Part shown: one piece after another, positions 17,515 through 32,505 of the stretch
Position numbering within the stretch: position 1 is the stretch's first letter
Layout: every line of letters starts with the position of its first letter
Assembly (NCBI GenBank): GCA_016188075.1
Contig: JACPIO010000002.1
Span: 1 to 35,264 of the forward strand
DNA: 35,264 nt
Direction: 5' to 3'
Source of the DNA: Candidatus Wolfebacteria bacterium
Lineage (GTDB): Bacteria; Patescibacteriota; Minisyncoccia; UBA6257; UBA9933
Notes under the pieces: generated by a model
Told to the model about the DNA's origin: nothing
What the model saw: the letters and a program-made list of their open reading frames with translations, nothing else
Database searches by the model: none
Translations under genes and position numbers: made by a program

Positions 17515-17603
17515 GAGTTGGGGGAATACAAAGTTAATGTAAGATTGGCACAAGATTAAAGAAGCGGGAAAAAGGGGAATAAACAATGTGGGGGTGTGGG
17601 GGA

Positions 17604-28729: not shown

Positions 28730-29425
28730 TTAAAAATCGACAAAATGCGGATATGACCGTGAAATTGGTTTTAGCGGTGTTCGTAGAACGGCCCATTGAT
28801 GATGTTCGTCCAATGACAATTTTTCTTCAAGTTTCCATCCCAGATTGTTTAGACAGAATGATACTGCTTTCGCAACAGCTGGAGCTTGGTAATCATCGGC
28901 AAATATGACGCCTTCGGGACGTACGAGACGCCCAAGATAAATCAAATCAAGGAATACTCGATCAAAGAGATGACTCCCATCTACAAACGCAAAATCAAAT
29001 TGTCGTCCTTCGCTCACAAACCGAGGTAACGCGATTTGCGATTCTTCTGCGCAGTGTTCAACTAAATGCGCAACCCCCGCTTCCTCCAATAATTGAAGAC
29101 CACAATTCTTAAAACTTGCGGCCTGAAAGGGATCGATGACAATATGGCGCGCATTATCTTTGCCACTCATCAGAAGACCCTCGCAGATATGGAGAGCCCC
29201 GATGCCCCATGCAAGACCAATTTCAATCGTGTGCACTGCTTTTTCTTTGATAACCCAATCCCGTAGCGCCTTGCCTTGAGCCGCGTTAATGGCAACAGGA
29301 AAAATATCAATAACCGATTTGTCAGAACGAGCGATTACTTTGCCATCACTAACAACGCGGTCAATTACTGAACGCGTGCGTTGCAATGTTTCATCTATAT
29401 TTGATGCGCTCTTTGGGCTAGTCAT
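28730..29425 (-). CDS. Class I SAM-dependent methyltransferase (O-methyltransferase-like)
   Basis: HTIEIGLAWGIGALHICEGL, HIVIDPFQ, FDFAFVDGSHLFDRVFLDLIYLGRLVRPEGVIFADDY. Confidence 0.82.
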   Translation of the reverse strand: MTSPKSASNIDETLQRTRSVIDRVVSDGKVIARSDKSVIDIFPVAINAAQGKALRDWVIKEKAVHTIEIGLAWGIGALHICEGLLMSGKDNARHIVIDPFQAASFKNCGLQLLEEAGVAHLVEHCAEESQIALPRFVSEGRQFDFAFVDGSHLFDRVFLDLIYLGRLVRPEGVIFADDYQAPAVAKAVSFCLNNLGWKLEEKLSLDEHHQWAVLRTPLKPISRSYPHFVDF

Positions 29426-29475
29426 TTCAATAAATCCTCAATAGAAACATCGAGGGCTTTCGCGATTTTTGCCAT
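29422..29475 (-). pseudogene. C-terminal remnant of an XRE-like HTH gene
   Basis: MAKIAKALDVSIEDLLK* matches the end of an XRE HTH domain and abuts the tRNA-Ser 3' end; ATGA overlap with the methyltransferase. Confidence 0.55.
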
Positions 29476-29494
29476 AGGCAAGTCATTTCCCAAC

Positions 29495-29584
29495 TGGCGG
29501 AGGAGGTGAGATTTGAACTCACGAGGGACTTTTGATCCCCACGGTTTAGCAAACCGTTCCGTTAGACCGCTCCGGCACTCCTCC
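29495..29584 (-). tRNA. tRNA-Ser(GCU), with encoded GCCA 3' end
   Basis: GGAGGAG...ACGGT-TTGCTAA-ACCGT...long variable arm...GTGAG-TTCAAAT-CTCAC-CTCCTCC-G-CCA. Confidence 0.93.
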
Positions 29585-29651
29585 CCGTGTTTAATCACAA
29601 TACATAAAATTCCTTGTAATTTCAAGCTTATTTTGGTAGGCTTGGTAGGTT

Positions 29652-31202
29652 ATGGATTTAACTAACAACCAACAACTGAAAACTGACAGCTTTTTGCCGC
29701 GCCCGCCCATTGTGGTGGTTTTGGGACACGTGGATCATGGAAAATCAACCTTGATTGATTTTATTCGAAAAACCAATGTGGCGGGCAAGGAAGCCGGCGG
29801 TATTACCCAATCTGTAGGTGCCTATGAAATTTGGCACCTACCGCAGAATGACGCAGAAGCTAATGCAGAAGGTCGCGGAAAAATTCCGCGTCATTCCGCG
29901 TCCGGTCCGCGCAGTTCCGCGTCTCCCGAAGGGAGAAAAATAACTTTTATTGATACCCCGGGCCATGAGGCGTTTTCCAAAATGCGAGCCCGAGGCGCTA
30001 AGGTGGCGGATTTGGCAATTTTGGTTGTGGCTGCTGATGACGGCGTAAAGCCTCAAACCAAGGAGGTGATAGGGGTTTTGAAAGAGAGCAATACGCCATA
30101 TGTCGTAGCCATCAATAAGATTGATAAAAATAATGCTGATGTCGAAAAGGTAAAACAAGAGCTGATGCAGGCAGGCGTTCTCTTAGAGGGATTTGGCGGG
30201 AATATAAGTTGGCAGGGAATTTCAGCGAAAAACGGTGAAGGCGTAAATGAGCTTTTGGATTTGATTCTTTTGACTGCGGAAATGGAGGGTTTGACCTATG
30301 ATTCCGAGGCGCCGGCTTCCGGAATAATTATCGAATCCACAATGGACAGTCGTCGAGGGCTCGCCGTGATGGCGATTGTGAAAAACGGCGTTTTGCGCGC
30401 CGGCGATTTTATAAAAACAGATAGCGCCTCGGGAAAAATTAAAATTCTCGAAAATTTTTTGGGAGAACGGGTGGAAGAATTAAGCCCCTCAAGTCCGGCT
30501 TTGATGCTGGGATTTGAAAGTTTGCCGCAAACAGGAGAAGAATTTACCGCGGCTAGTACTTTTTCGCAAGCATCCAAAAAAGAAATTGGTGAAGTTAGCG
30601 ATCAAATTCGCATCGATTCGCGAGTTGAGAAAAATTCGCGAGGGGTAAATTTGATATTGAAAGCCGATGTAACCGGATCGCTTGAGGTTTTGTCCCAAAT
30701 CATAAAAACAATGCCGGACTTCCAAATTGTAAGCGAGGGGATTGGAGATATAACCGATGGCGATGTAAAAAGCGCTCAAGGAACAAGCGCTGTGATCGTC
30801 GGTTTTAAGACCAAGGTGGCCAAGGCCGGAGAAAATTTAGCCAAAGCCCAAGGAATAGAGATTATCACCTCTGGTGTCATTTACGAGTTGCTTAAATTAC
30901 TTGAGGAAAAACTGCAGTCCGTTAAAGAACCAGCGCCCCAGGGAGAGCTTTTGGTTTTAAAAACCTTCAGCGCCAGAGGCAGGAAACAGGTTCTGGGCGG
31001 ACGGGTGGAGTCGGGTTTTATTAAGAAAAATACGCAGGTTAAGATTTTTCGAGAAGAGAGTGTTTTGGGACAAGGTAAAATTATCAATCTGCAGAAAGAT
31101 AAAAATGACACAAGTCAAGTTGCCGAGGCTAGCGAGGCTGGTATTCTTATTGAGTCAGAGGTGGTGGTAGCCGCCGGAGATCGATTGATTTATGAATCGT
31201 AA
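29652..31202 (+). CDS. infB: Translation initiation factor IF-2 (short N-terminus) with an in-frame insertion in the G domain
   Basis: [83 protein letters not shown]. Confidence 0.96.
29814..29936. repeat. Cluster of inverted repeats embedded in infB
   Basis: GTAGGTGCC/GGCACCTAC (29814-29841); GAATGACGC/GCGTCATTC (29846-29896) enclosing CGCGGAA-AAA-TTCCGCG; TCTCCC-GAA-GGGAGA (29922-29936); TTCCGCGT three times. Confidence 0.85.
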
Positions 31203-31212
31203 AGCATAAATC

Positions 31213-31497
31213 ATGAAGCATCGAGTAGAAAGAATAAATAGTTTAATTCAGGAAGAATTGGCTAAAATTTTTCTGCGGGAGATGGAATTCCCGGCTGCCT
31301 TGGTTACGATTTCGCGGGTAGAAACTTCTGATGATATGGCGAGAGCCGCGGTTGGATTAAGCGTTATTCCGTCGGGAAAATCAGAGGAGGTTTTGAAATT
31401 AGTGAATGGCAATCGTGAACTACCGATGATCTTGGCGAAGAATATGGCGATTAAGCCAATGCCGAAAATTGTTTTTGAAATTGACCCCCACACCTAA
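31213..31497 (+). CDS. rbfA: Ribosome-binding factor A, C-terminus interrupted by a hairpin insertion
   Basis: MKHRVERINSLIQEELAKIFLREMEFPAALVTISRVETSDDMARAAVGLSV; remainder EQAARIEKILMEDKIERG* lies downstream of the hairpin. Confidence 0.85.
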   Translation: MKHRVERINSLIQEELAKIFLREMEFPAALVTISRVETSDDMARAAVGLSVIPSGKSEEVLKLVNGNRELPMILAKNMAIKPMPKIVFEIDPHT

Positions 31498-31529
31498 TCA
31501 GTCTTGAGATTTTTGATTAGGTGTGGGGG
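31485..31529. mobile_element. Putative 45-nt palindromic insertion (16-bp inverted repeats, 13-nt loop, TTGA duplication)
   Basis: CCCCCACACCTAATCA-gtcttgagatttt-TGATTAGGTGTGGGGG flanked by TTGA on both sides (31481-31484, 31530-31533). Confidence 0.7.
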
Positions 31530-31609
31530 TTGATCGGGGGCCGGAGCAGGCGGCCCGGATTGAAAAAATATTGATGGAGGATAAAATAGAAAGGGGATAA
31601 GTAAAAGAT

Positions 31610-31855
<246 letters not shown>

Positions 31856-31860
31856 CAGTT

Positions 31861-31946
31861 GCCGGGGTGGCGGAATTGGCAGACGCGCTGGGCTTAAGCC
31901 CCAGTGAGAGTAAAATCTCGTGTGGGTTCGACCCCCTCCCCCGGCA
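31861..31946 (+). tRNA. tRNA-Leu(UAA)
   Basis: GCCGGGG..CTGGG-CTTAAGC-CCCAG, long variable arm, TTCGA loop, CCCCGGC-A. Confidence 0.9.
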
Positions 31947-31978
31947 CTTCGATAAACTTAGTGCAGGCACAAAAAATT

Positions 31979-32386
31979 ATGGAAAATCGGCCTAAGGTTG
32001 GCGTTGGTGTAATAGTCATGAAAGACGGTAAGGTGCCGCTTGGAAAAAGAAGGGGATCGCATGGCGAAGGCTCGTGGTGTCTCCCCGGCGGCCATTTGGA
32101 ATTTGGAGAGTCGTGGGAAGACTGCGCTAAGCGAGAAGTAACAGAAGAGAGCGGAGTGACAATAAAGAATATTCGCTTCGGCGCCGCCACCAATGATATT
32201 TTTGAGGAAGAGGGCAAGCACTATATCACGATTTACATGTTGGCTGATTGGGATTCTGGCGAACTTAAAATCACTGAGCCGGAAAAGTGGGATAAATGGG
32301 ATTGGTTCGAGTGGGGAAAATTTCCCGAACCGCTTTTTATACCCCTCTGCAACTTATTAAAACAAGGATTTGATCCTTTTAAATAA
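31979..32386 (+). CDS. Nudix hydrolase
   Basis: GGHLEFGESWEDCAKREVTEESGV Nudix box; start moved to ATG at 31979 because the longer ORF overlaps tRNA-Leu. Confidence 0.92.
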   Translation: MENRPKVGVGVIVMKDGKVPLGKRRGSHGEGSWCLPGGHLEFGESWEDCAKREVTEESGVTIKNIRFGAATNDIFEEEGKHYITIYMLADWDSGELKITEPEKWDKWDWFEWGKFPEPLFIPLCNLLKQGFDPFK

Positions 32387-32505
32387 AGGATTCTTCTTCT
32401 GTGCATAACTCATTTTGTTCTAAAGAAGGGAGTTGCTATAATGATAAGGTGAAAACTAAATCTTATTTATAAAGGTCGAATTTTTCGTTAAGTGATTATT
32501 TTTTT

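Follow-up and report, generated by a model that had tools for sequence, protein, structure and literature searches.

The 45-bp hairpin that breaks the rbfA coding sequence of this Candidatus Wolfebacteria genome is best explained as a non-autonomous MITE from a family whose likely autonomous form encodes a GIY-YIG nuclease. We consider this full model likely and assign it a probability of about 0.78. The narrower claim that the hairpin is a MITE-type insertion is very likely and close to certain. Family membership, the termini, the 4-bp target duplication, and an empty site in relatives are shown.

A palindromic element interrupts rbfA

The window (the whole stretch of 35,264 nt analyzed here) makes up a single contig of a genome that measures 676 kb and is 96% complete; its named relatives are Candidatus Wolfebacteria and further Patescibacteria/CPR genomes from metagenomes. 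It contains, in order, infB (29652-31202), rbfA (from 31213), and a tRNA cluster; the hairpin at 31485-31529 breaks rbfA. The features at the locus, with the evidence for each, are as follows.

31213-31484, forward strand: 5' part of rbfA, 90 codons plus 2 nt (ORF, Pfam RBFA)
31481-31484, unstranded: TTGA, left copy of the target duplication (sequence; excess of 4-bp duplications in element copies)
31485-31529, unstranded: palindromic mobile element, 45 bp, non-autonomous (hairpin, fold, same termini at other loci)
31485-31500, unstranded: left arm CCCCCACACCTAATCA, containing the TAA (31495-31497) that closes the interrupted rbfA frame
31501-31513, unstranded: loop, 13 nt (arm pairing)
31514-31529, unstranded: right arm TGATTAGGTGTGGGGG (arm pairing)
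31530-31533, unstranded: TTGA, right copy of the target duplication (sequence)
31534-31600, forward strand: displaced rbfA 3' end, ..RGPEQAARIEKILMEDKIERG and stop (flank joining, 15 relatives, tblastn)

The arms are 16 bp each and perfectly complementary, or 17 bp if the flanking A/T is counted in, and TTGA stands on both flanks. As single-stranded DNA, the hairpin folds at -19.2 kcal/mol (z = -6.9), and none of 200 shuffles equaled its fold. The interrupted ORF (31213-31497) encodes 94 aa and ends ..FEIDPHT at the TAA within the left arm; the codon broken at the insertion takes its next base from the element and the reading remains EID. Its product retains positions 1-93 of the 105 in the Pfam RBFA profile (PF02033, E 1.4e-14). 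When the flanks are joined minus one TTGA, they encode a 112-aa RbfA ending ..FEIDRGPEQAARIEKILMEDKIERG before the stop, and the displaced 3' end gives a tblastn match at 31526-31597. Element plus duplication amounts to 49 nt, which shifts the frame, and about 21 native residues are gone. The 45-bp copy has no ORF of its own.

We aligned the joined RbfA with that of 15 relatives, all uninterrupted by the hairpin, and the alignment is gap-free at the junction, where RbfA of relative G018 reads FEIDRGPENAARIEKILIDDKI. The joined protein also aligned to solved RbfA structures, again with no gap at that point. Since an uninterrupted rbfA aligns both in relatives and in solved RbfA chains, the empty site is real. 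The initial annotation, made from the sequence alone, had described a perfect hairpin at 31485-31529 flanked by TTGA with the rbfA stop inside it, an RbfA C terminus that becomes readable once the hairpin is removed, and the loss of about 20 residues to a 49-nt frameshift; all of this held, with the count adjusted to about 21. It had also proposed comparing the rbfA 3' end across relatives, and the 15 with the empty site answer that proposal.

Other readings of the locus were tried and rejected: an intrinsic terminator (0 calls of a stem plus T-run in 31200-32000), an RNA family (no Rfam family at gathering score), and a group I intron or homing element (no intron family at 29400-32400).

The element belongs to a dispersed family that duplicates 4 bp of target

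The family termini are CCCCCACACC..GGTGTGGGGG, with a terminal 10-mer common to the family. This genome holds six complete copies, the rbfA copy included, and a half copy at C26:63847. The further complete palindromes, each starting with CCCCCACACC and ending with GGTGTGGGGG, are listed by contig.

C2, 2908-3010
C9, 12484-12533
C11, 25227-25350
C11, 65261-65307
C20, 5025-5092

Palindromes of 30-90 bp with these termini occur in 39 of 244 genomes of the order, and a reversed-pattern control gave 0. Beyond the order, they were found in one of six sampled genomes from other orders of the class and in none of the 136 sampled phylum genomes outside the class. On the basis of this phylum sample, the CCCCCACACC subfamily is concentrated in this order. 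The exact-palindrome pattern had 0 matches in viral contigs, which, at this stringency, gives no indication of carriage by phages. No larger elements with the same ends were found next to unpaired single ends within the ~1.5 kb examined.

An exact 4-bp duplication flanks 47 of 104 distinct copies and is absent in the other 57; re-pairing the flanks gave an expectation of 7.2, with a maximum of 17 in 1000 shuffles. Among the duplicated sequences, TAAA/TTTA (18) and TCAA/TTGA (16) predominate. Hence, insertion of family members duplicates 4 bp of target and favors certain target sequences, with which the TTGA in the window agrees. In a separate observation, the inner arms vary within a single genome yet remain complementary, as if one arm were corrected against the other; the five G079 copies (L168 and L281-L284) are an example.

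These data also bear on the remaining claims of the initial annotation. A mobile, MITE-like hairpin with a 4-bp duplication is supported by the other copies, the excess of duplications, and the empty sites, and the search it had suggested for other copies in the genome found real ones, on other contigs. The label "REP-like" is not supported, given the 4-bp duplications and a partner that is not an HUH transposase. The term "fossil" is unproven; perfect arms and a perfect duplication point to a fairly recent insertion. A GGTGTGGGGG string near 17593, suggested as related, has no inverted partner and was rejected as a further copy. Neither a GIY-YIG coding partner nor in-frame gene insertions had been included.

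Copies inside protein genes

Thirteen copies lie within ORFs that continue across the element and extend for 40 codons or more on either side of it; in every case, the element length plus 4 bp is divisible by 3. The count partly reflects the open-ORF filter, which out-of-frame genic copies cannot pass. In a flank-joining test that does not require openness, rbfA was the sole out-of-frame case in an identifiable gene, with several doubtful ORFs unresolved. Housekeeping genes are common among the hosts. In a GalT-like protein of this genome (galT), 24 extra in-frame residues (YPHTKRTHTSFSAKGASVRSGVGV) are contributed by a 68-bp family member with a TTTA/TTTA duplication (L014 1501-1568; G000:C20:5025-5092). 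In PolX, 11 extra residues correspond to an exact 11-residue gap in the alignment with 3au2. RsmH also holds an in-frame copy, its identity as host gene supported by Pfam or PDB, and further hosts supported by Pfam are MurD, an acyl-CoA ligase, aspartate-semialdehyde dehydrogenase, D-Ala-D-Ala ligase, AlaRS, a class-V aminotransferase, and Dus.

Translation of the insert usually follows a single frame, xPHTKR..RSGVGV, which remains open in the CCCCCACACCAAACG subtype. In the CCCCCACACCTAA subtype, to which the rbfA copy belongs, this frame is closed (PHT-stop). The rbfA copy is thus the out-of-frame exception; its position 21 codons before the end of the gene presumably makes it tolerable. Separately, 32-bp members (L186 and L187, 1501-1532) immediately precede the FTLIE prepilin motif in two pilin-like proteins from different genomes; in L186, the glycine before FTLIE is supplied by the last codon of the element.

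A GIY-YIG nuclease is encoded by long copies with the same ends

Some copies measure ~285-310 bp between the shared inverted-repeat ends, and their only substantial ORF encodes a single-domain GIY-YIG protein of 84-92 aa. We searched the 244 genomes blindly for long copies, with the termini and a 285-315-bp length as the sole criteria. Five copies were recovered (control 0), four of which encode GIY-YIG; the fifth, in G047, has no intact GIY-YIG. Four of the five genomes with long copies also hold short ones (Fisher p 0.0025). Within G018, a 159-bp copy and a 309-bp GIY-YIG copy have identical ends (44/44 and 24/24 bases), which fits an internal-deletion derivative; this is supported for one pair, and the descent of the window copy is not shown.

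Inverted repeats with a score of 13 or more frame 23 of 46 distinct family loci with stand-alone GIY-YIG genes, vs 1 of 128 offset controls. Among 80 named GIY-YIG loci, such framing is present at 28, vs 2 of 296 offset controls. Elements fall into several end-sequence subfamilies (CCCCCACACC, CCCCGCACC, CCCAGTAAC, TCCCTCACC, and TCCCGTT) in which GIY-YIG is the sole substantial ORF and 4-bp duplications occur; flush 4-bp duplications were seen at 13 GIY-YIG loci with several different end sequences. The collection was scanned for GIY-YIG with a 4-sequence alignment (A2). Elements ending in CCCCCACAC were found in Wolfebacteria, Nealsonbacteria, Wildermuthbacteria, and others, plus the non-CPR phylum Omnitrophota. 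Among solved structures, UPF0213 proteins and SLX1, a structure-specific endonuclease, are nearest to the GIY-YIG profile; there is also a weak NCBIfam match to a group I intron endonuclease, under its cut-off.

The 96%-complete assembly of this genome lacks a CCCCCACACC-type GIY-YIG copy; the mover would therefore have been lost, missed, or provided by another subtype. We conclude that the GIY-YIG elements are likely the autonomous partners of the family, with strong support that comes by association only. That the GIY-YIG protein catalyzes movement is inferred, not shown, and strand joining is unexplained; no GIY-YIG enzyme is known to us to carry out transposition.

Insertions in a second rbfA and in rRNA and tRNA genes

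In another Ca. Wolfebacteria genome, G006, rbfA is interrupted by an element at the identical codon (LEI-D..HGPEN). This rbfA is missing ~60 internal codons, and 30 bp further along the tail lies a 389-bp element that ends in CCCCGTTAGAAACT, is flanked by TTGA/TTGA duplications, and holds a frameshifted GIY-YIG ORF. Given the lost codons and the second element, this rbfA appears to be a pseudogene. An rbfA match is absent in 11 of 21 relatives in the family; because of this and the decay in G006, RbfA is possibly under weak selection here.

The 23S rRNA gene of G006 (L316) contains a GIY-YIG element framed by terminal inverted repeats (TIRs). That of G012 (L312) contains a 126-bp insert with ends CCCCACACCAAT..ATTGGTGTGGGG, a CCCCACACC palindrome. 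We also observed many inserts with palindromic ends in 23S rRNA genes of the family (L316 in G006, L312 in G012, and L324/L326 in G000).

At L193-L197 (around 1773-1780), GIY-YIG elements end flush with tRNA 5' ends, and the first 7-10 nt of the tRNA are duplicated beyond the other side of the element. The terminal G-run of the element doubles as the first tRNA bases; in L193 and L194 this run is GGAGG instead of GGGGG, matching tRNA-Ser.

Other tRNA genes show nesting. Within the window, a broken tRNA-Cys-like gene (31609-31858; GGTCTGG..CCAGACC) has its anticodon loop split by an insert that carries an intact tRNA-Cys (31723-31795). The syntenic spot behind rbfA in G003 (L162) and G006 (L156) has a tRNA-Cys remnant, a GIY-YIG ORF, and an intact tRNA-Cys. 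The CCCCCACACC palindrome at G000:C2:2908-3010 (L104 1409-1511) carries an intact tRNA-Arg(CCT) and itself lies within an apparently broken tRNA-Arg gene, and G006:C33 (L087 1438-1568) shows similar nesting with a different tRNA.

Alternative explanations

The hairpin could be a MITE moved in trans by an unseen DDE-type transposase, with GIY-YIG as a passenger or as a separate homing nuclease that has similar ends. DDE elements typically show inverted-repeat ends and a duplication of fixed length, and short copies occur in this genome without a matching GIY-YIG copy. Against this stand several end-sequence subfamilies with 4-bp duplications and GIY-YIG as their sole substantial ORF, the recovery of GIY-YIG in four of five copies by a blind length search, and unpaired single ends that lack a convincing distant partner within the ~1.5 kb examined; we regard the DDE explanation as unlikely. 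Even less probable, and in our view very unlikely, is that the hairpin is an RNA-level signal of the rbfA mRNA (a terminator, attenuator, RNase III site, or translational bypass) and not an insertion. A very stable hairpin, a presumably transcribed operon, and a readable downstream frame speak for it. However, the hairpin is missing from 15 relatives, the same ends occur with 4-bp duplications in unrelated genes and at intergenic sites, and the interrupted rbfA of G006 is pseudogene-like (~60 codons lost and a second element).

A different question is whether the rbfA insertion is old and inherited together with that of G006 instead of reflecting two independent hits. Both genomes share the codon (EI-D) and a left flank of TTGA, and inheritance remains possible and is not excluded. 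Nevertheless, IF-2 of the window genome is 57% identical to that of G006, no closer than to that of G003, which lacks the insertion. The duplication is perfect in the window (TTGA/TTGA) but TTGA/TGGA in G006, and the interiors differ (45 bp in the window, 118 bp in G006). Moreover, TTGA is favored as a target, and in the G006 rbfA another GIY-YIG element hit a second TTGA, 30 bp away. We therefore favor independent insertions at preferred TTGA sites as the likely history.

Comparison with known systems

Like MITEs, these elements are short, have terminal inverted repeats and a target duplication, and appear to be deletion derivatives of a coding element; the window copy meets the MITE criteria of terminal inverted repeats, a fixed 4-bp duplication, and an empty site in relatives. 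Unlike MITEs, their coding partner has a GIY-YIG nuclease and no known transposase. Rickettsia palindromic elements (RPEs; PMC10969869, a 2024 review that mentions neither GIY-YIG nor endonuclease) are likewise palindromes in frame within unrelated protein genes. The present family differs in occurring in other bacteria, in being shorter (26-80 bp in genes), and in having clear 4-bp duplications and a candidate autonomous partner. In-frame genic insertion, an RPE trait, is not met by the rbfA copy (49 nt) but is met by 13 other copies, including that in galT.

REP/REPIN sequences with RAYT (IS200/IS605-type HUH) are also small palindromes, and a small nuclease is believed to mobilize them in trans. 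REP/IS200-type elements use HUH enzymes and leave no target duplication, whereas this family has 4-bp duplications and a GIY-YIG partner, so the REP/IS200-IS605 criterion is not met. GIY-YIG homing endonucleases (I-TevI type and free-standing HEGs) share the catalytic domain; here, in contrast, the nearest solved relatives are UPF0213 and SLX1, the ends are inverted repeats, and the targets are diverse 4-mers with no single homing site.

GIY-YIG insertions in CPR rRNA genes, unlike introns and thought to be outside spread by homing, have been reported along with many uncharacterized insertions of <200 bp (PMC11270868). The host group is the same, and the GIY-YIG element of G006 and the CCCCACACC palindrome of G012 both lie in 23S genes. 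The term "inverted repeat" is absent from the main text of that study, and the sections bearing on the insertions do not tie them to a mobile family outside rRNA. Family elements would account for at least part of these insertions. In the open-access literature searched (subscription papers and preprints were outside the scope), neither TIR-framed GIY-YIG elements nor these palindromes are described.

Proposed model and significance

In our preferred model of a GIY-YIG-associated MITE, the element inserted at a TTGA near the rbfA 3' end, duplicating 4 bp and shifting the frame such that the last ~21 residues were lost and the domain core was left. The autonomous form would measure ~285-310 bp, share the inverted-repeat ends, and encode one GIY-YIG nuclease, and short copies would be its internal deletion products, as is supported for one pair. 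The GIY-YIG protein is inferred to recognize the ends, perhaps as an extruded hairpin or cruciform, and to cut TTGA/TTTA-like targets with a 4-nt stagger; host fill-in of the staggered cuts would then yield the 4-bp duplication. Recognition of an extruded palindrome would be plausible, by inference, for a nuclease that acts on branched DNA. Genic copies would persist if the element length plus 4 bp is divisible by 3 and no stop interrupts the frame; the protein would then gain a short peptide, often xPHTKR..RSGVGV. All evidence comes from metagenome assemblies, and movement itself was not observed.

A bolder reading, toward which we lean only by a narrow margin, is that TIR-framed ~300-bp GIY-YIG-only elements form a new class of autonomous transposable element that is moved by a GIY-YIG enzyme and ranks with the smallest known. 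The rbfA hairpin would be one palindromic deletion derivative of this class, which would have spread in Patescibacteria through proteins (as in-frame peptides), rRNA genes, and tRNA genes, with the coding form also in Omnitrophota. No transposable element is known to be moved by a GIY-YIG nuclease alone; if the reading is true, GIY-YIG would join the nuclease classes used for transposition, in elements of ~300 bp. To our knowledge, no mover of RPE-like genic palindromes has been identified either, and the family would offer a testable model for their spread. It would also give a common origin to three puzzles of CPR/Patescibacteria: the abundant small GIY-YIG genes, the unexplained rRNA insertions (PMC11270868), and the in-frame palindromic peptides in essential enzymes.
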